47,628 bases of DNA. Origin: a virus. The position numbers and the translations under genes are program-made. Numbering within the stretch: the stretch's first letter is position 1; each line of letters opens with the position of its first letter. The DNA lies in IMG/VR virus record IMGVR_UViG_3300033143_001222, positions 1 to 47,628 of that record. One strand, given 5' to 3'. This document shows positions 53 through 11,083 of the stretch, in pieces. Under the pieces are notes generated by a model. It was not told where the DNA came from. It worked only from the letters and a program-made list of their open reading frames with translations, and ran no database searches.

Positions 53-2156
53 TTGGTATTGGTACTCAGAGTTTGAAGACGAATACAGGCCAGGCGCGTT
101 TGTCGGTGTCGGTGTCTTCGGTAATTACCGGGAGCCTTGTCAGGAGCGTATTGTCTGGACATCAAAGCGTAAGAACGTAATGTCACCAACTGAGGTTGCG
201 CTGTTCAGTGAGCAGATCGAACGTGCTGCTATCAACCGCCAGATCGAGAGAGAAGAAGCATACAAACGTGCTGCCACCAAAGCCCAAGCTATCTGGGAAA
301 ACGCGGACCCGGCACCAGAAGACCATCCATATCTGGTAAAGAAGGGCATTCAACCCCACGGCGCACGCTTCAGAAACGGATGGCTTGTGCTATCTGTTAC
401 GATCGATGGAGTGATTACATCGCTTCAGGAGATCAAGGGCAACAAGAAAAAATTTCTGATCGATGGAAAAATTGGTGGCGGCTATTATATATTGGATGGC
501 ACCACTACTGTTGTATATGTCTCAGAAAGCTATTCTACTTCAGGCAGCATACGAGAAGCGACCGGCGCCAAAGTGTATTGTGCTTACAACGCCAACAACC
601 TCCTGGACGTTGTAAACATAGCCAAAGATCAAAACCCTGATTCAAACGTCATTATCTGTGGAGATGATGATATCTGGAAGGAAACCAACACAGGAAGAAC
701 CAAGGGCATGGCAGCCAGCGAGGCCACACAATGCCGTATTGTCTTCCCGTTATTTCAAGACACCACCAGCAAGCCAACCGATTTTAATGATATGCACGCC
801 CTGGAAGGGTTAGATGTTGTCCGGAAACTTATTGAAGAGAAGCCGGCGCTATATATAAAAAAGACCGACTACGAGGATATGCCGGAAGAACTACTTTCGC
901 CGCCAGGGATCCTGGGAGACATCGCCAACTATTACAATGTTACCGCACGCGCACCGCAGCCAGGCTTTGCCGTTCAAACAGCGCTTGCCATCGGATCAAT
1001 CGTCATGGGCAGAAATTTTAAATCCACCAAGGGCAACCATACCAGCCTATATTTCTTAAACATCGCAAAATCAGGAACGGGAAAAGAGCATGGTAAAACA
1101 GTTATTGAAGATATTTTGTCGAAAGCCGAGCTTCACGACTACATCAATGGGAGTGGTTATACCAGCGCAGGGGCAGTATTTTCTGCTTTGCTCCGCGCAC
1201 CAAAACATATCACTATCATCGATGAGTTCGGCAGGTACCTTGAAGCTGCTCAGGGAAACAAAAACACACAGCTTATGGAAGCGAATACACAGTTGATGGA
1301 GGCTATCGGCCGGTGCCACGGAACAATGCGCCCCAGCAGCTACAGCACGATGACGCTCACCAAAGAAAAAGCTAAAGAAATGTCAGACCGGCAGATCAAA
1401 AACCCGGCGATCACATTAATGGGGATGACCACACCGGTCGCCTTCTTTGCCAACTTGAGATCCGATGCTGTTGCAGATGGTTTTCTCGGTCGGTTTATAA
1501 TCCACCAGTCCAATATGCCGCGCCTGGTTCACGATGATAAAGATATGATTGACGTGCCTAACAAAATTACCAATTGGGTTAAGAGCGTGCAGGATCGGAC
1601 CGGACACAATGCGGGCTTGTCCGACACAGCCGCCACCGACCCCCTGTTTGTTACGATGGCTTTTCATGGGGATTCTATTGCTATGCTGAGATCCTATTCT
1701 CAGGAGTGTGTTGATATGGCTAACGAGCTGGAGCGCTTTGGTCTGGAGGCCTTACCTGGCCGAGCAAAAGAGATGGCCATGCGTATAGCAATGATAGTTC
1801 AAGTGTCAATAGATCCAGAATCCGACATTATTGGCACCGAGGCTGTAGGATGGGCTATAAAATACATGCGCTTTTCAATCAATCAATCAGCCAGCGTGTT
1901 GAAAATGAAGATGGCCGGGTCATCCTTTGAAGCCGACAAGAAAGAAGTATTGGAAGCTATCCGGGAAGCTGGAGAGAATGGCGTGAGCTGGAGCGATATG
2001 CAGAAAACGCCACCATACGCAAAACACCGCAAACGCGATATGGGCGATATCATGGACGCGCTGATATCTGCGGAGCTTGTTACACACGAACGAATCACGA
2101 GCGGAAAACGTGGGCGACCGCGTGAGGCGTATATTGCAATAGAAGGAGAGAAGTGA
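1..2156 (+). CDS. TOPRIM/DUF3987 primase-helicase, 3' part (gene crosses the join)
   Basis: This is the main part of a 763-aa protein whose start is at 47441; the reading frame enters here with its first full codon at base 3. In full-length numbering, a TOPRIM-like region spans about 205-320, with the acidic motif SESYSTSGSI near 216, an acidic DDD triplet at 267-269 and DFND at 306-309. It is followed by a DUF3987-type ATPase region with Walker A SGTGK at 403-407 and Walker B ITIIDEF at 449-455. The last 75 residues look like a winged helix. Such proteins prime and unwind DNA at phage forks. Residues just after Walker B contain NTQLMEA twice in tandem, which may be a recent 21-bp duplication. 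The stop overlaps the next start as TGATG. Confidence 0.88.
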   Translation, partial: RIQKFATPGDKGSSKAGWYWYSEFEDEYRPGAFVGVGVFGNYREPCQERIVWTSKRKNVMSPTEVALFSEQIERAAINRQIEREEAYKRAATKAQAIWENADPAPEDHPYLVKKGIQPHGARFRNGWLVLSVTIDGVITSLQEIKGNKKKFLIDGKIGGGYYILDGTTTVVYVSESYSTSGSIREATGAKVYCAYNANNLLDVVNIAKDQNPDSNVIICGDDDIWKETNTGRTKGMAASEATQCRIVFPLFQDTTSKPTDFNDMHALEGLDVVRKLIEEKPALYIKKTDYEDMPEELLSPPGILGDIANYYNVTARAPQPGFAVQTALAIGSIVMGRNFKSTKGNHTSLYFLNIAKSGTGKEHGKTVIEDILSKAELHDYINGSGYTSAGAVFSALLRAPKHITIIDEFGRYLEAAQGNKNTQLMEANTQLMEAIGRCHGTMRPSSYSTMTLTKEKAKEMSDRQIKNPAITLMGMTTPVAFFANLRSDAVADGFLGRFIIHQSNMPRLVHDDKDMIDVPNKITNWVKSVQDRTGHNAGLSDTAATDPLFVTMAFHGDSIAMLRSYSQECVDMANELERFGLEALPGRAKEMAMRIAMIVQVSIDPESDIIGTEAVGWAIKYMRFSINQSASVLKMKMAGSSFEADKKEVLEAIREAGENGVSWSDMQKTPPYAKHRKRDMGDIMDALISAELVTHERITSGKRGRPREAYIAIEGEK

Positions 2157-2350
2157 TGACCAAAGAAGAAAAATTAAAACGCCTGAAATATAAACTGCAA
2201 CTAGCCATAGCTGATCGGATGGTTTTTGATGGCTACACCGCAACCAACGCATCGGGTTTGGCATTGATAATAGAGGCTAAGAAAAAAGAGCTTAAAGCTC
2301 AAGAAAAACTTCGCAGATTCATGGATAAATATCCAAAGGTAGGAAGATAA
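2156..2350 (+). CDS. Small basic hypothetical protein
   Basis: A 64-aa lysine-rich, mostly helical protein of unknown function. I chose the ATG at 2156, which overlaps the upstream TGA and lies behind a good AGAAGGAGAG ribosome site; a GTG one codon earlier (2153) is possible. Its TAA overlaps the ATG of the helicase stump at 2350, so it was probably co-translated with that helicase before the latter was disrupted. Confidence 0.6.
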   Translation: MTKEEKLKRLKYKLQLAIADRMVFDGYTATNASGLALIIEAKKKELKAQEKLRRFMDKYPKVGR

Positions 2351-2427
2351 TGATCCTCACCGAAGAACAAGAACACGCCATATCATCGGCCCCGGATGCG
2401 ATCGAAGGCCCCCTTGTTCTTTTTTAA
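2350..2427 (+). pseudogene. 5' stump of a UvrD-like helicase gene
   Basis: A 25-codon frame starting at an ATG that overlaps the previous stop (TAATG). It reads MILTEEQEHAISS, then EGPLVLF and stop. This matches the start of UvrD/PcrA-type SF1 helicases, where L-x-x-EQ-x-x-A-[IV] (Q-motif region) is followed by EGPLL-[VI]-[LM] and then the Walker A AGAGSGKT. The match ends exactly where Walker A should begin. The sequence then turns A/T-rich and leads into the GIY-YIG gene. The matching 3' end of such a helicase is at 3198-3260. Assignment to the family is from motif memory, not a database search. Confidence 0.6.
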
Positions 2428-2448
2428 ATATTACGTTACTATCCATAA

Positions 2449-3204
2449 ATGAGAAAAATATACAGTGTTTACAAAATTACAAACCTAATAACTCAAAAAA
2501 TATATATTGGAGTTACTTGTCGAGATATGAAAACGAGATGGAGGCAACACAAAAATAGAAAACCACAAAATAATTTTTTCAGACTTTGTATCAAAAAATA
2601 TGGAGAAAAAAACTTTAAAATTGAAATTTTATTTTTGTTTTCCTCGCAAGACAAAGCATACGAAAAAGAAAAATATCTTATCAATAAACATAAAACTAAT
2701 ATATGCCGTTACCCAGAAGGTGTTGGCATGAATATGTCTGATGGTGGAGAAAGGGGGAACTACGGTTATGTTGCTACAGAAGAGCACAGAAAAAATTTAA
2801 GCAAAGCCTTTACTGGAAGAAAAATAACTAATACAGAAAACATGAGAAAAGCAAAATTAGGCGCCAAAAATCCAATGTATGGTAAAAAAATGTCAGAAGA
2901 AGGGAAAAAACAAAGAAGTGATTTTTGGAAGACGGACGCTAATCCGATGAAGGGGAAAACTGGAAAAAACAACCCGCTATACGGAAGGGAGAGGCCTAAG
3001 CATGTTAAAGAGGCTTTGTTAAAAAATAACATGAAGAGGGCAAGACCAGTTTTACAAATATGCCCTGAAACGAATAAAGTATTAAATGAGTTTGAAAGTT
3101 GTGGCGCTGCCTGTAGATCAGTAAATATAAAAAATGGCGTTCATGGCGCCTGTAATAAAAAACAGAAAACAGCAGGCGGGTATAAATGGAGATATAAGAA
3201 ATGA
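2449..3204 (+). CDS. GIY-YIG homing endonuclease with NUMOD modules
   Basis: A 251-aa protein. The N-terminal 95 residues form a GIY-YIG nuclease domain, with SVYKITN standing for the GIY strand, KIYIGVT for YIG, and the Arg/His helix RWRQH. Residues about 105-190 contain NUMOD3-type DNA-binding repeats (HRKNLSKAFTGRK, AKNPMYGKKMSEE, NPMKGKTGKNNPLYGRE). The C-terminus is NUMOD1-like (RPVLQICPETNKVLNEF). Such enzymes cut a specific site so that their own gene is copied into it. The gene is visibly A/T-richer than its neighbours and has no strong ribosome site, which suggests recent transfer. It replaces the centre of a helicase gene. Confidence 0.88.
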   Translation: MRKIYSVYKITNLITQKIYIGVTCRDMKTRWRQHKNRKPQNNFFRLCIKKYGEKNFKIEILFLFSSQDKAYEKEKYLINKHKTNICRYPEGVGMNMSDGGERGNYGYVATEEHRKNLSKAFTGRKITNTENMRKAKLGAKNPMYGKKMSEEGKKQRSDFWKTDANPMKGKTGKNNPLYGRERPKHVKEALLKNNMKRARPVLQICPETNKVLNEFESCGAACRSVNIKNGVHGACNKKQKTAGGYKWRYKK

Positions 3205-3260
3205 TGCAGATGCTTTACGTCGCAGCAACGCGACCGAGCAATTGCCTGGTGGTAATGTAA
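3198..3260 (+). pseudogene. 3' stump of the UvrD-like helicase (motif VI)
   Basis: Right at the end of the GIY-YIG gene another frame encodes E-MMQMLYVAATRPSNCLVVM and stop. LYVAxTR followed by a hydrophobic strand is motif VI of UvrD/PcrA/AddA helicases. With the stump at 2350-2427 this makes a helicase lacking everything from Walker A to motif V. An ATG at 3201 could in principle start a 19-aa peptide, but no ribosome site or function is visible. Confidence 0.55.
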
Positions 3261-3270
3261 AGGAAAGACT

Positions 3271-3483
3271 ATGGATATAGAAGTAAAGCTTGACGCGATC
3301 GGTAAAGAGGTCGTCAGAAAAGTAGATGCAAAATATAAAGCCGGCATGATTGAACATGGCGAGGGCGTGCGCGGTATGTCCGACGCTGGGCTATCACGCC
3401 TGGAGTGGTTGCTTGCCCTACAAGAAGAGGCGATTGACACAGTTGCCTACTGCGAAGTTCTGATTCAGCAAGAGCAAAAATAG
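3271..3483 (+). CDS. Hypothetical protein, faint MazG-like character
   Basis: A 70-aa acidic, helical protein with AAAGGAAAG as ribosome site. Its second half (LEWLLALQEEAIDTVAYCEVL) resembles the E-E-x-x-D helix of small phage MazG-like or dNTP pyrophosphohydrolase-like proteins, but the rest of the fold is not recognisable and the similarity is weak. It follows the helicase stump and ends before an intergenic promoter-like region. Confidence 0.6.
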   Translation: MDIEVKLDAIGKEVVRKVDAKYKAGMIEHGEGVRGMSDAGLSRLEWLLALQEEAIDTVAYCEVLIQQEQK

Positions 3484-3501
3484 CCAACTAACTGCCCTGT
3501 A

Positions 3502-3530
3502 TAGGTAAACCATTAATATTGTGTTAAGAT
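3502..3530 (+). promoter_or_regulatory. Possible extended -10 promoter
   Basis: Upstream of the metallophosphoesterase gene lies TGTTAAGAT (3522-3530), an extended -10 element (TG-N-TAAGAT), with only a poor -35 (TAGGTA, 3502-3507). Transcription would start near 3537. The same bases lie in an imperfect inverted repeat TGTT-N10-AACA. Weak evidence. Confidence 0.3.
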
Positions 3531-3564
3531 AGTCGAACATTTCCATTATCACAGTGGGGGATAT

Positions 3565-4689
3565 TTGACTTTATCAGCAGAAGAACTCAAAGAAGCGTAT
3601 GATGCACACAAGACCTTCAATGGATGCGCTCGTGAAGCAGCGGCCTTTTTAAACCTGAATATCAGGACTTATGGCGAGAGGCTTAAAAAAGCAAAAGAAA
3701 AATTCCTATACAACATGCCCGATGACCACAACCTGAAGGGCGTCAGTAACTACGAAAAACTAAACCCTGAAACCGGCGAGTGGGAGGCCACCCGAAGGTG
3801 GTGCAAATCAGACAAAGATAAAGAAAACGCTCAAGAAATAGCCTCTGTGATACTGAAGGGCATTCTTGATAAGATTAAACCAGTTGTTCCAACCCCCGCT
3901 CCAAAACATACAGTTTCCGACCTGTTAGCTGAATATAATTTAACCGACTTCCATCTGGGCGCCCTAGCCCACGCAGAGGAGAGTGGCGACGACTGGAATA
4001 TTGATATAGCAGAAGACCTGGTTCGTAAATGGTTGTTATCCGCTATGGACTCTGTGCCAAATGCACACACCGCAGTCTTGAACAATATGGGTGACTACCA
4101 GCATTTTAGCTCTATGATAGCCGAGACACCAGCACACAAGCACCCTCTGGACGCAGCCGCTAGACCGTACTTAATAGTAAGAGCCGCCATAAGAATAATG
4201 CGCATGTTGATTGACGAGCTGTTGAAAAAACATGAGCATGTCCATGTCAAAATATGTGATGCCAATCATGATCCGTATGGTCAATTGTTCTTGCGTGAAT
4301 CTCTAAGGCCTCTATATGAAAGCGAACCCAGAGTAAGTATAGACGATTCACCTACAGCATATTATTGCTATGAATGGGGAGACGTGAGCTTATTCTATCA
4401 TCACGGCAACAAGAAAAACCTTAAACAGATATCTGAGGTATTTGTAGGGACGTTTAGGAAAATATATGGTCGCACTAAATTTAGCTATGGAAGAATAGGC
4501 CATTTCCATCATGGCGCATCTACAGAGGACTGTCTTATGAAGACAGAGATTATGCCAACGCTAGCGCCCAAAGATAATCACGCGGCAGAAAGCGGATACT
4601 TAAGCAAGAGGGAGGCGGTGACGGTCGTGTTCCACAAAAAATATGGGGAGGTGAAGCGTATCACCACATCTCCGGAGATGGTGTTGTGA
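3565..4689 (+). CDS. Metallophosphoesterase-family protein
   Basis: A 374-aa protein starting at TTG, 3 bases after a GTGGGGGAT ribosome-site region. Residues 1-45 look like a small helix-turn-helix (AAAFLNLNIRTYGERLKKA). The calcineurin-like phosphoesterase motifs follow in order: DFH (128-130), GD (176-177), NHD (234-236), HHG (279-281) and GHFHH (312-316), which supply the two-metal site. Family members in phage replication regions are thought to act as nucleases or phosphatases; the substrate here is unknown. The stop overlaps the GTG start of the next gene. Confidence 0.8.
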   Translation: MTLSAEELKEAYDAHKTFNGCAREAAAFLNLNIRTYGERLKKAKEKFLYNMPDDHNLKGVSNYEKLNPETGEWEATRRWCKSDKDKENAQEIASVILKGILDKIKPVVPTPAPKHTVSDLLAEYNLTDFHLGALAHAEESGDDWNIDIAEDLVRKWLLSAMDSVPNAHTAVLNNMGDYQHFSSMIAETPAHKHPLDAAARPYLIVRAAIRIMRMLIDELLKKHEHVHVKICDANHDPYGQLFLRESLRPLYESEPRVSIDDSPTAYYCYEWGDVSLFYHHGNKKNLKQISEVFVGTFRKIYGRTKFSYGRIGHFHHGASTEDCLMKTEIMPTLAPKDNHAAESGYLSKREAVTVVFHKKYGEVKRITTSPEMVL

Positions 4690-5279
4690 AGAAGATTTCA
4701 TTAAAAGAAGCAAGGCGGCTAGGCAGATCGAGATATTATACAGGCGTGCCATGCGTTAGGGGTCACATATGCGCCAGAATAACCACTAGTGCGCTGTGCT
4801 GTGAATGCTCAAAAATGCACAAACGAAACGCTCATTACAAAAAGGCTGGTGACCCAGAATATAAAAGAAAAAGAAAAGAATACACCGAAAGAAACAAGGA
4901 TTCTAAAAAAGAATACGACAAAAGATACCGCAAAGATAACAGGGAAAAGGTTAATAAAAACTCTAGAGAATGGACAAAAAACAACAAGAGCAAGCGCAGT
5001 GCCATCTCTCAAAATTACAAAGCAAAAAGAAGGGCTATTAAAAAAGAAGGAATGTCATCCATAGAGCTGATGGAATGGAAAAAATCTCAGCAAAAAGTTT
5101 GTCACTGGTGTCAGGTTGAGTGTGAGGAATCCTTCCACGTAGATCATTATATCCCTCTTTCTAAAGGCGGTAAGCATATAGCATCTAACTTGGTTATATC
5201 ATGCGCATCGTGCAACGTAAGAAAAAACAATAAAATGCCAGATATCTGGGAAAAAGAAATAAGGGAGATGATCGCATGA
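4686..5279 (+). CDS. HNH endonuclease (probable free-standing homing enzyme)
   Basis: A 197-aa very basic protein with a GTG start overlapping the previous stop. The N-terminus carries a Cys/His cluster (CVRGHIC, then CCEC) that probably binds zinc. The middle is a lysine/arginine-rich helix (about 50-115). The C-terminal 65 residues are an HNH domain: CHWC, FHVDHYIPLSKGG, NL and CASCN. It cleaves DNA and is likely a selfish homing enzyme placed between host-like phage genes. Its A/T-rich, A-rich codon use differs from flanking genes, like the GIY-YIG gene. Confidence 0.85.
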   Translation: MKKISLKEARRLGRSRYYTGVPCVRGHICARITTSALCCECSKMHKRNAHYKKAGDPEYKRKRKEYTERNKDSKKEYDKRYRKDNREKVNKNSREWTKNNKSKRSAISQNYKAKRRAIKKEGMSSIELMEWKKSQQKVCHWCQVECEESFHVDHYIPLSKGGKHIASNLVISCASCNVRKNNKMPDIWEKEIREMIA

Positions 5280-5467
5280 TGTGGTATGCAGCAGCCTTAA
5301 TATATTTCGGAAATATCGATCAGCAACGGAACGTAGCGTGGGGCAGAGGCTTTAAAACAAAGGCCGCTTGTGAAAAATTCATCAAAGACCCTACCGTTCC
5401 AAAGTACATGATGGTGATCGAGATTGAGTGTGTTTTCAAGGCAGAAGGCAAAAAGGTGTCTGTATAA
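5276..5467 (+). CDS. Hypothetical protein
   Basis: A 63-aa protein whose ATG overlaps the HNH gene's stop (ATGATG). It begins MMWYAAALIYFGN and contains a region with alternating hydrophobic residues. It resembles the short single-domain proteins in which aromatic residues precede a K-x-x-C-E helix (TKAACEKFIKDP), but I cannot name a function. Confidence 0.55.
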   Translation: MMWYAAALIYFGNIDQQRNVAWGRGFKTKAACEKFIKDPTVPKYMMVIEIECVFKAEGKKVSV

Positions 5468-5479
5468 TAGAACTTAGAT

Positions 5480-5552: not shown

Positions 5553-5762
5553 ATGAACCGCGTAGAAAAAATGATTGAAAAGTTCAAGCCGGCCTTTGAG
5601 GGATCAATCCCTAAGATGTCCAAAGCTATGAACATTGATAGAACCACGCTTCACCACGCCATGAAGCGTGGAACTTTTAGCACTGACTTGCAAGAGAAGT
5701 TTTTGGATCTGGCCAAAGAGCATAAAGTTAAAGTCAACCCAGTAGACCTGTTGAATGTCTAA
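5553..5762 (+). CDS. Small HTH DNA-binding protein (Cro/CI-like)
   Basis: A 69-aa basic protein with ribosome site TAGGAACGA. Residues about 16-45 (SIPKMSKAMNIDRTTLHHAMKRG) fit a helix-turn-helix with the second helix TTLHHAMKR in the recognition position. The size suits a Cro-like or YdaS-like regulator. It is the first gene after a promoter that carries a GTTG-N9-CAAC palindrome and is the simplest candidate for the protein that binds it. Binding itself is inferred, not shown. Confidence 0.7.
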   Translation: MNRVEKMIEKFKPAFEGSIPKMSKAMNIDRTTLHHAMKRGTFSTDLQEKFLDLAKEHKVKVNPVDLLNV

Positions 5763-6288: not shown

Positions 6289-6792
6289 ATGACGAAAAAC
6301 CACGTTTCTATGGAGGCTCTTCTAACGATGACCCCCGCAGATCTGGATGCCCTGACTGTCGATCAATTGCTACTGATACAGCAAGACATTGTCGATGAGG
6401 CCAAACGGATCAAAAGCATTATAACCATATATGATAGCGTCCTTAATAAGCGCTATACAAAATCAATAGCCAAGGCTTACAAGGCTAAAGATGAAACGTA
6501 TGGCAAGGTCACCTTCTGCGATAACAGCCAAGATGATTATATCATTGACGTTGAAACTCCCAAGAACATTAAATGGGATCCAAGCGCTATGATAATTGCT
6601 GAGGCGGTTATTCGTGACGAATGGGAAGAAGATCCTGATGAGTATGTCACTACCAAACGGTCAATCCCTGAAGCTAAGTACCTTGGCTGGCCTAAAGCAA
6701 TCCAAAAAGTGTTTGCTCCTGCCCGTGCTGTTACGGCCGGCAAGCGTAAAATTTCAATCAAACTTGTAGAAAAAGAAGAGGAAGCTGCATAA
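6289..6792 (+). CDS. Conserved-type phage protein of the recombination operon
   Basis: A 167-aa protein with ribosome site AAAGGAAAG. The first 60 residues are helical (VDQLLLIQQDIVDEAKRIKSI), and the middle part is acidic with DDYIIDVETPKNIKWDP. Proteins of this layout often precede Sak4-like ATPases in phages, but I cannot give an activity. It is the first gene behind the 6211 promoter and its TAA overlaps the next ATG. Confidence 0.75.
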   Translation: MTKNHVSMEALLTMTPADLDALTVDQLLLIQQDIVDEAKRIKSIITIYDSVLNKRYTKSIAKAYKAKDETYGKVTFCDNSQDDYIIDVETPKNIKWDPSAMIIAEAVIRDEWEEDPDEYVTTKRSIPEAKYLGWPKAIQKVFAPARAVTAGKRKISIKLVEKEEEAA

Positions 6793-7559
6793 TGGCTATC
6801 GATTTAAAATCAATTCAAAAAGGTGCGTCGCATTTGCCACCACGGATACTGGTTTATGGTGTCCAGGGTATCGGTAAATCGTCGCCCAACGCTCCAAACC
6901 CAATTTTCATTCTAACTGAAGACGGTTTGGGCTTACTGGAATCGGATCACTTTCCACTGTGCAAATCCTACACAGATGTAATGGATTGCTTAACCGTACT
7001 GGCAACCCAGGAACACGAGTTTGAAACTCTTGTAATGGATTCCCTGGACTGGATGGAACCACTGGTATGGCAACATACTTGTGAGATCAATAACTGGTCG
7101 AGCATTGAAGATGCCGGCTACGGAAAAGGTTATGTTGAAGCCCTGGCTTTTTGGTCAGAGTATCTTGATGCGATCAACTATCTTCGCAATGAGAAGAACA
7201 TGACGATCATCCAGACGGCCCACGCTACGGCCAAACGGTTTAACGACCCTACCACCGAGCCGTATGATCGGTACCAGATTAAACTCCAGGATAAAGCTGC
7301 CGGCAAAATGCTGGAGCATAGCGATATCGTGTTGTTTGCTAACTATCGCGTCACCACCATTAAAGACGGCAAGGACAAAAAGAATGTCCGGGCTGTTGGT
7401 GCAGGCGAGCGGGTTATATACACTGAGGAACGCCCAGCGTTTATAGCCAAAAACCGTTACTCTCTGCCAGCCGAGATGTCTTTAGACTGGAACGAACTTG
7501 CTAAACATATCCCTTACTTCAACCCCAAGAAAAAAGCCGCTGGTAAGAAAGCCGCTTAG
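6792..7559 (+). CDS. Sak4-like RecA-fold ATPase (AAA_24), recombination
   Basis: A 255-aa single-domain ATPase. Walker A is GVQGIGKS (23-30) and the Walker B strand is TLVMDSLDW (79-87). Later motifs include MTIIQTAHA and the KAAGKMLEHSDIVLFANY segment seen in phage Sak4/AAA_24 proteins. Sak4 proteins bind single-stranded DNA and promote strand annealing or exchange together with a phage SSB. Here the SSB candidate is the next gene, 11 bases downstream. The C-terminus ends in a lysine/alanine-rich tail (KKKAAGKKAA). Confidence 0.85.
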   Translation: MAIDLKSIQKGASHLPPRILVYGVQGIGKSSPNAPNPIFILTEDGLGLLESDHFPLCKSYTDVMDCLTVLATQEHEFETLVMDSLDWMEPLVWQHTCEINNWSSIEDAGYGKGYVEALAFWSEYLDAINYLRNEKNMTIIQTAHATAKRFNDPTTEPYDRYQIKLQDKAAGKMLEHSDIVLFANYRVTTIKDGKDKKNVRAVGAGERVIYTEERPAFIAKNRYSLPAEMSLDWNELAKHIPYFNPKKKAAGKKAA

Positions 7560-9174: not shown

Positions 9175-9440
9175 GCGGATTAGATGATTTAATAGATGCG
9201 TCTGTAAAATGTGTGAAATGTGGCACCAAAGGAATAGGTAATTGTGATTGTCACAACCACCCAAAACCAGAAGAAACAGACCTGTGCTATGAATGCAACG
9301 ACCCCGGAAGAAAGTACACCCTCAATTATATTGATTGTGTTCTCTGCGATGATTGCGCCGAGGAAAATGGCGTTGATATATTAGAGTATCACCCAAAAGC
9401 AGAATTAAGATGCGACAAAACAAAGGATATGTTTGCATAA
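9171..9440 (+). CDS. Cysteine-rich zinc-binding protein
   Basis: An 89-aa protein whose ATG overlaps the nuclease stop (ATGA). It contains CVKCG, CDCHNH, CYEC, CVLCDDC, enough ligands for two zinc sites. No enzyme motif is visible; it may be an adaptor of the nuclease before it or the helicase-like protein after it. Its TAA overlaps the next ATG. Confidence 0.7.
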   Translation: MSGLDDLIDASVKCVKCGTKGIGNCDCHNHPKPEETDLCYECNDPGRKYTLNYIDCVLCDDCAEENGVDILEYHPKAELRCDKTKDMFA

Positions 9441-11083
9441 TGTACACCCCACGCCCATATCAGGAAAAAGGAATCTGCGCCCCATTTGACTTTTGGGCGA
9501 TCGCTGACGGCAACCCGTTAATTATCGCGCCAACACAAAGCGGTAAAGCTTTGATGATCGCTGAGTTTACCAAGAGAGCCTGCACCCTTTACCCCGGCAC
9601 TAGAATATTAGTGTTGGCTCATGTAGCCAAACTTTTGAAACAGAACGCCGCCACCTTATTCAAGCAATGGCCTCATGCGCCGCTTGGCTTTTACAGCGCA
9701 AGCCTCGGCCGCAAAGACCATCACGCCAAGATTTTATTTGCCGGGATTCAGTCGATATATAAGAAGGCGTCCATTGTCGGCCACGTTGATGTGATCCTGA
9801 TTGACGAGGCTCACATGATTTCGCCCAATCAAAGCACGATGTACCGGCAATTCATTGCCGCCTTGCTGGTTATCAATCCCAAATTAAAAATATGTGGATA
9901 CACAGCAACACCATATAGACAAAATCAAGGATATCTGACCGAGGGTAAAAACCCAATATTTACAGATATCGCTCTTGATATACCAGTCCTTCACTTATTG
10001 GAAGAAGGATATTTAACACCAGTTATAACACCGGAAACAAATATTGAGATGGACGTGTCTGGCGTTGGTATGAGCGGCGGGGATTTTGTTATATCCCAGC
10101 TCGACGAGGCTGTGAATGTAGATGAAATAACAAGGGCTTGTGTCGGTGAGATTATCCATCACATGCAGGAGCGTAACTATCCGTTGGTTTTTTGTGTCAC
10201 GGTTGCCCACGCTGAGAACACAGTGGAAGAATTTAAAAGGCGAGGGTTGAATTTTGCGCTGGTCACTGGCGATACCAAAGAAACAGAGCGCGACGTTATA
10301 TTCGCGCAGCTTGAGCGCGATGAGATTGACGGCATTGTAAATGTAATGACGATGACAACAGGGATATCGATTCCATGCGTTGACCTCATTGCATTAATGC
10401 GTCCGATCCGCGCCCCGTCTTTATACGTCCAGATTGTTGGCCGTGGCATGGCGCTGGTTGACGGAGCCATTGGAAACCTACCAACAGCAGAAGAGCGCTT
10501 GGCCGCTATTGCTGCGTCAACTTGTCCGAATTGTATGGTGCTTGATTTTGGCGGTGTAGTGAAAGCCCTTGGCCCGATCGATAACGTGAAGGTCAAGCCC
10601 CCCGGCAACGGAACCGGCGACGCGCCAATCAAACAATGTCCAGAATGCCTGAGCTTAAACCATGCCGCTGTGCGCGTATGCTTTGATTGCGGATATGAGT
10701 GGCCAGAGCCGGAGCCGGATGTTGAAGTTAAAAGCAGCAAAGCCGCGATCCTGTCAACCCAGATTGAATCTGTGTGGGAAGATGTAGGTGATGTTTATTA
10801 CGACCTTCATTTAAAAGAGGGTAAGCCAGATTCAATTAAGGTCAGCTATTACATAGGCGTGTTGAGCGTGAGCGAGTGGATCTTCCCGGAACATCCCAGG
10901 ATGAAAGCAAGGTTTGCCGGCTGGTGGATTAAACGTGGTGGCGATGTAATGGCTATACCACAAACCGCAAAGGACGCGCTGGAAGTTATGGACGGTCTTG
11001 ACAAACCAACAAGAATACTGGTCAGGCCTAACGGAAAATTTGAAGATATATTGGAGTATGATTTCAATGACAAAGCGATGTAA
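9440..11083 (+). CDS. SF2 (DEAD/DEAH-type) helicase-like protein with altered ATPase motifs
   Basis: A 547-aa protein; I chose MYTPRPYQ at 9440, overlapping the upstream TAA, since YTPRPYQ is the usual start of such helicases. Motif I is APTQSGKA (30-37), motif II IDEAH (121-125), motif III GYTATPYR, and motif VI QIVGRGMAL. A zinc ribbon follows (CPECLSLN, CFDCGYEW), and about 110 more residues after that. Two usually invariant residues differ: the Thr/Ser after GK in Walker A is alanine and the last arginine of motif VI is alanine. It may be a weak or dead ATPase. It is expected to act in remodelling replication or recombination intermediates. Confidence 0.85.
   Translation: MYTPRPYQEKGICAPFDFWAIADGNPLIIAPTQSGKALMIAEFTKRACTLYPGTRILVLAHVAKLLKQNAATLFKQWPHAPLGFYSASLGRKDHHAKILFAGIQSIYKKASIVGHVDVILIDEAHMISPNQSTMYRQFIAALLVINPKLKICGYTATPYRQNQGYLTEGKNPIFTDIALDIPVLHLLEEGYLTPVITPETNIEMDVSGVGMSGGDFVISQLDEAVNVDEITRACVGEIIHHMQERNYPLVFCVTVAHAENTVEEFKRRGLNFALVTGDTKETERDVIFAQLERDEIDGIVNVMTMTTGISIPCVDLIALMRPIRAPSLYVQIVGRGMALVDGAIGNLPTAEERLAAIAASTCPNCMVLDFGGVVKALGPIDNVKVKPPGNGTGDAPIKQCPECLSLNHAAVRVCFDCGYEWPEPEPDVEVKSSKAAILSTQIESVWEDVGDVYYDLHLKEGKPDSIKVSYYIGVLSVSEWIFPEHPRMKARFAGWWIKRGGDVMAIPQTAKDALEVMDGLDKPTRILVRPNGKFEDILEYDFNDKAM

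Follow-up and report, generated by a model that had tools for sequence, protein, structure and literature searches.

The helicase gene that once lay downstream of the primase gene in this virus appears to have been lost recently, and a gene for a GIY-YIG homing endonuclease (HEG) very probably stands in its remains. Whether the HEG itself caused the loss is a tentative matter, since that reading shares the ground with the rival explanations weighed below. The window analysed here is the whole virus record IMGVR_UViG_3300033143_001222, with a length of 47,628 b and a GC content of 46.6%.

Organization of the locus

The record carries a 52-b repeat at its ends and is therefore probably circular and complete, with the primase gene spanning the record ends. 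The features of the locus are listed in Table 1. The two short frames described in the earlier note were found where it had placed them, and the only ORF between them is the 251-codon GIY-YIG ORF. The translational couplings on the left side, which the same note had considered intact, are so: the ATG at 2156 shares bases with the primase stop codon TGA, just as the ATG of the left stump does with the stop codon of the frame at 2153-2350 (TAATG). The gene at 3271 had been named as the flanking gene on the right. A shared right neighbour does exist, but it is the gene at 5553 and not the gene at 3271, which is not the direct neighbour in the relative L002, because the window has a 2.2-kb island (3262-5470) after the stump. 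This island follows directly on the helicase stop codon, is absent from this place in both L002 and L003, and contains an exonuclease-like gene (phrog_704) together with an HNH gene, putatively a second mobile endonuclease.

Table 1. Features of the helicase locus in the window
Feature	Coordinates	Strand	Evidence or remark
Primase gene (DUF3987)	180..2156, across record ends	+	Left anchor; 86% (L002) and 85% (L003) identity; PHROG DNA primase
65-aa ORF, coupled to stump	2153..2350	+	Absent from L002 and L003
N-terminal helicase stump, 25 codons	2350..2427	+	Certain homology at 2356-2406; 17-residue alignment to L002; blastn match at 2356-2390
AT-rich spacer ahead of endonuclease ORF	2428..2448	+	GC falls from about 0.6 to 0.17 around 2420
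Predicted free-standing GIY-YIG HEG, 251 aa, with NUMOD3	2449..3204	+	PF01541, PF07460, TIGR01453
C-terminal helicase stump with motif VI	3196..3260	+	blastn 3196-3261 to L002 4611-4676; 18/19 residues; junction comparison
Island absent from L002: 70-aa ORF, exonuclease-like gene, HNH endonuclease gene, 63-aa ORF	3262..5470	+	
Small gene, putative HTH (label only)	5553..5762	+	Right anchor common to L002, L003 and L021, 71-78% identity

Remnants of a Dda-like helicase

One check that had been proposed was to look for an intact helicase gene flanked by homologues of the neighbouring genes, and it was positive: L002 has a gene for a 436-aa helicase (3365-4675) with the primase gene on one side and the homologue of the 5553 gene on the other. 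As evidence against its reading the earlier note had named relatives that carry both short frames but lack a helicase, and no such relatives were found. The left frame (2350-2427) encodes MILTEEQEHAISSAPDAIEGPLVLF followed by a stop codon, of which the segment encoded by 2356-2406, LTEEQEHAISSAPDAIE, corresponds to residues 7-23 of the L002 helicase; the right frame (3201-3260) encodes MMQMLYVAATRPSNCLVVM followed by a stop codon, and 3196-3260 spans the last 19-20 codons of the L002 gene. The ungapped alignment of the left frame to the L002 helicase covers 17 residues with a score of 70, which was reached by none of 20,000 shuffles (best score 47), while that of the right frame covers all 19 residues, 18 of them identical, with a score of 92 (0/20,000 shuffles, best score 58). 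At the nucleotide level, blastn matched 2356-2390 to L002 (83% over 35 b, E 0.003) as well as 3196-3261 to L002 4611-4676 (82% over 66 b, E 7e-12), and gave no match to L002 for window positions 2391-3195. The stumps are collinear with the L002 helicase gene in strand, order and flanking genes, with the primase gene to the left and the HTH gene to the right.

When the L002 helicase was used as a query at E-values up to 10, three of five records gave matches: the record of L002 itself (G004) contained the full copy, record G001 a C-terminal part and the window the two stumps, which were the only sites matched in it. The records of L021 and L003 gave none. Likewise, no match to Pfam AAA_30 was found in the window at E-values up to 1, in a search that was positive in 14 of 14 control genomes. 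The claim that the helicase core has been lost was thus borne out for the whole record, from which about 390 of 436 codons are missing, beginning ahead of Walker A and ending shortly before motif VI. What remains are residues 7-23 and the last 19-20 of the 436 residues, with Walker A and the rest of the core absent, and the helicase is dead because these core codons are gone. A second copy of the lost gene was sought elsewhere in the record and none was found; the SF2 helicase gene at 9377-11080, whose homologue in L002 is RadD-like, belongs to another family.

The L002 gene for the SF2 (RadD-like) helicase (L002:9038-11605, + strand) encodes 855 aa, as compared to 523 aa in L003. An insert of about 300 aa interrupts it in frame, starting with CIAEGQKILTDIGLVPIEKI and ending with LLVSN before a cysteine; by these end motifs it looks like an intein, and no intein model matched it. 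Inside the insert, in another frame, a 243-aa ORF (L002:10320-11051, + strand) gave matches to HNH endonucleases (phrog_374, 7e-19) and no Pfam match. The copy of the SF2 helicase in the window has no insert.

The label UvrD/PcrA that had been given to the parent gene did not hold. The best families of the L002 helicase are Dda-like and RecD2/RecD (PHROG Dda-like helicase, 4e-84; Pfam AAA_30, 4e-20; RecD2 model, 2e-26, which is far below the cut-off of that model), and among the UvrD models UvrD_C_2 alone, which is C-terminal, passes its cut-off (3e-7). Among solved structures, the L002 helicase matched 9kwf, Deep-Sea Helicase 9, and T4 Dda (3upu, 2e-9). Judged from its sequence, the parent of the stumps is a predicted Dda/RecD2-like SF1B helicase. 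The positions of the motifs were obtained from an alignment of the L002 helicase with seven phage homologues, in which we take residues 32-39 to be Walker A and LYVAVTR to be motif VI.

Age of the loss

The earlier note also held that the loss was recent, and the substitution pattern agrees. In the 36 alignable stump codons, 20 synonymous and 5 nonsynonymous changes separate the window from L002 (pN 0.059), a pattern like that of the living primase gene, where 357 synonymous and 150 nonsynonymous changes were counted over 658 codons (pN 0.098). The nonsynonymous change in the stumps and in the primase gene was not significantly different (Fisher p 0.34). If the helicase had been dead for at least 20% of the window branch, the probability of observing 5 or fewer nonsynonymous changes would be 0.006 or less, and for 10% of the branch it would be about 0.03 or less, both for dS from 0.8 to 3.0, and this bound depends on the assumed dS because synonymous change is saturated. 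The 17 codons on the left were chosen as alignable, which favours conservation, and the dating did not include the 6-7 codons of the left stump that cannot be aligned; the 19 codons on the right were not chosen. Because of the saturation and of this choice of codons, the pattern is an argument and not a date. It nevertheless supports a helicase loss that would be recent relative to the split from L002.

The endonuclease gene

The product of the gene between the stumps is predicted from its sequence to be a free-standing GIY-YIG homing endonuclease. It contains a GIY-YIG catalytic domain (PF01541, 47.2 bits, cut-off 22.6) and a NUMOD3 DNA-binding module (PF07460, 37.1 bits, cut-off 20.4), and it matches TIGR01453 with 85.2 bits (cut-off 56) over residues 7-247 of 251 and phrog_314 over residues 1-251. 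The sequence match to the I-TevI domain is weak (E 0.1), with an arginine and a glutamate aligned at the positions of R27 and E75, which we take to be catalytic residues. Many phage matches, among the matches listed, end at residues 249-251, and since the usual C-terminus of the family lies near its end, as judged from TIGR01453 and these phage matches, the endonuclease looks complete.

Its relatives are distant. The closest ones found are 10 loci with 28-56% identity, the value of 56% applying to about 30 residues, and the identity to phage records is at most 32% for the best 30 of 432 matches. No close relative of the HEG was found in genome_contigs, and no DNA relatives of the segment 2340-3300 were found among 50,697 phage records. 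With a GC content of 33% and a GC3 of 0.29, the HEG also deviates in composition from the primase gene (GC3 0.52) and from the stumps (GC3 0.59 for 22 codons on the left and 0.68 for 19 codons on the right). This contrast makes the stumps look resident and the HEG a foreign newcomer. Ahead of the ORF, no promoter signal emerged (5 promoter-like sites in 2100-3600 as compared to 4.0 in shuffles), nor did the fold z-score of +1.40 point to an RNA structure.

A possible course of events

In the ancestor of this phage, a gene for a Dda/RecD2-like SF1B helicase was very probably flanked by the primase gene and the 5553 gene, as it is in L002. The endonuclease would have cut a helicase allele, and repair of the break would have installed the HEG; the helicase core may have been lost in the course of imprecise repair, or afterwards by deletion, the gene having become useless. 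The allele with the HEG and without the helicase could then spread to helicase-bearing relatives by cutting, followed by copying together with its flanks. The helicase was an accessory one, for no copy of it lies between these two genes in L003.

An extension of this course of events, which we regard as improbable, is that the homing allele deletes its own target, so that the HEG and the helicase-minus junctions form one cassette that would cut intact helicase genes in co-infecting relatives. The replacement of the helicase by this cassette through co-conversion of the shared flanks, which is a part of the same reading, is likewise doubtful. If it were true, gene loss would spread through the phage population by homing, and if it fails, what is left is ordinary turnover of accessory genes beside the primase gene. 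The locus allows a defined test of whether a deletion that removes an accessory gene can spread in phage populations by way of homing.

Relatives and the accessory neighbourhood

When viral contigs were scanned with the primase, two close relatives emerged, L002 (86%) and L003 (85%), as well as a distant one, L004 (24%). A scan with the primase alignment returned L002 and L003 again and no others, and a scan with AAA_24 gave 11 loci, of which three were close at 84-86% identity, on the contigs of L002, L003 and the newly found L021. No relatives of the endonuclease or the primase were found in genome_contigs. An intact helicase at this locus was found in one relative, on L002's own contig alone; a scan with a pattern from the N-terminus of the helicase yielded five stretches, one on the contig of L002 and four that did not match the helicase. 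The exonuclease-like gene has relatives at 7 loci (37-44% identity). A helicase was found in none of the 17 records of these 7 loci and of the 10 endonuclease loci, many of which are fragments, in a search that had no positive control.

The interval from the primase gene to the 5553 gene measures 3397 b in the window, 2061 b in L002 and 516 b in L003, where it contains a 150-aa ORF and no helicase gene. The contig of L021 begins inside the interval and carries a putative methyltransferase-like ORF there. Since the contents and lengths of the interval vary among these relatives, the helicase was part of an accessory, fast-changing stretch.

Other differences between the relatives lie further downstream. 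In the AAA_24 gene of the window (6792-7559), the stretch after the Walker A lysine is altered and two codons shorter (GIGKSSPNAPNP in the window, GIGKTKFGADAPNP in L002, GIGKTKFGADAPKP in L003 and L021). Genes for tRNAs are present in L003 (5819-5894) and L021 (1521-1602), between the homologues of the genes at 5553 and 5755 in the window, and no tRNA gene was found in the window.

A second decapitated copy of a helicase gene of the same type is present in record G001 (L032:60-506, - strand), where only the last approximately 140 residues are retained, with 59% identity. Upstream, small ORFs take the position of the helicase core, and the record gave no match to GIY-YIG. The contig gave no protein match to the larger ORFs of the window.

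The accessory nature of the stretch makes the loss of the helicase less surprising, and it is the main support for a different sequence of events, in which the gene decayed first: a deletion would have left two stubs of an accessory helicase, and the HEG would have landed later in a harmless scar. We consider this rather unlikely. The dispensability of the helicase, as indicated by L003, and the fast turnover of the stretch that separates the primase gene from the 5553 gene speak in its favour, as does G001, in which the C-terminal part of the helicase persists without the core and without a GIY-YIG gene, but the fragment in G001 belongs to an unrelated phage. Furthermore, the endonuclease sits exactly between the two stubs, and because the stumps are without signs of long decay both events would need to be recent.

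The junctions

The earlier note had the helicase cut exactly at Walker A, which the comparison with L002 does not support. The certain homology on the left ends at E23, 8 residues before the first glycine (G32). Beyond E23, the left stump continues with GPLVLF, which is unmatched in L002 (HQKRYVIK); since one homologue has SGPFFLLRGSAGTGKT there, some of the GPLVL residues may still derive from the helicase. The foreign sequence on the left side starts at about 2407-2424, and the GC content, which falls near 2420, rises again near 3200. On the right side, the homology starts at 3196, just upstream of motif VI, with GAAATGATGCA common to the window, L002 and G001; upstream of it the sequences diverge except for one or two A's. 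In the frame of the endonuclease GAAATGATGCA reads AAG AAA TGA, so that the last two lysine codons and the stop codon of the HEG are helicase-matching DNA in the +1 frame, and the first 9 b of the C-terminal stump double as the end of the endonuclease gene. The source of this stop codon is thus present in L002 and G001, in whose records no GIY-YIG match was found. The homing site may have been at the right junction near motif VI or, equally possibly, at Walker A.

The junctions are sharp on both sides, and the HEG end and the helicase have AAGAAATGA in common at the right junction. Both observations would fit a replacement in one step, in which an illegitimate or short-homology exchange during co-infection swapped the core for an HEG cassette, the HEG having had no part in cutting the helicase. 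We think it unlikely that the locus arose so, and unlikely to the same degree that AAGAAATGA aided such an exchange at the right junction: no donor was found for a comparison of donor and target, and the 9 b may be due to chance.

It is very unlikely that the arrangement is an assembly artefact, with reads from two genomes, one bearing the helicase and the other the endonuclease, fused into an order that no phage has. The record is a virus contig from a metagenome, and a second contig with either junction was not found, but an artefact needs two independent false joins that agree in strand and order, the 52-b repeat closes the record, no outstanding repeat is present at the junctions, and the stumps share the high GC3 of the window. 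A search for junction repeats able to drive either a deletion or a misassembly gave only short two-copy matches, none of which stands out.

There is next to no chance that the endonuclease lies within a group I intron or an intein whose splicing restores the helicase, for although the best NCBIfam model for the HEG is named after a group I intron endonuclease, both element types are ruled out by the lack of any Rfam match in the window, by the reading frames, with a stop codon (2425-2427) preceding the HEG, and by too little DNA outside the ORF (58 b between the L002-matching bases 2390 and 3196, all to the left of it), and splicing cannot restore a helicase of which about 390 core codons are absent from the record.

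Comparison with known systems

In the literature searched, which leaves most subscription journals outside, no report of an HEG between the stubs of a Dda-like helicase gene was found. According to Belle, Landthaler and Shub (2002), T4 segF reportedly stands where T2 has another gene, and if so it would resemble the window in that an HEG replaces a gene kept by a relative. The target listed for T4 segF in a review of T4 mobile elements is the neighbouring gene 56 (PMC2988022). In that review the T4 seg genes are placed at gene borders, such as uvsX/beta-gt and soc/56 (PMC2988022); they are similar to the HEG of the window in being genes for intron-less GIY-YIG nucleases in or beside genes for DNA metabolism, and they differ in that the HEG of the window lies inside a gene without its core.

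Also described there are mobE in nrdA of phage Aeh1, mobA in gene 60 of T4 and seg43 at gene 43 of phage 25, each an HEG in or at a split replication gene whose halves work or are thought to work (PMC2988022). The stumps in the window together do not cover a whole helicase, and the protein cannot be reassembled because about 90% of its codons are absent. The two stubs should not be annotated as small genes. Another locus with a homing element in what is annotated as a phage helicase is Arth_1007 of Arthrobacter FB24, described as a 'DnaB' intein pseudogene with exteins of 52 and 14 residues (PMC3196547). There the intein is decayed and its exteins are unmatched (PMC3196547), in contrast to the intact endonuclease ORF of the window and to stubs that can be traced to the helicase of a relative.

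HEGs in the replication genes of phages are thus already known, and the present case, with only stubs of the gene left, is a modest variation on them. The locus provides a clear snapshot of an HEG occupying a recently killed replication gene whose intact allele is known from a relative.
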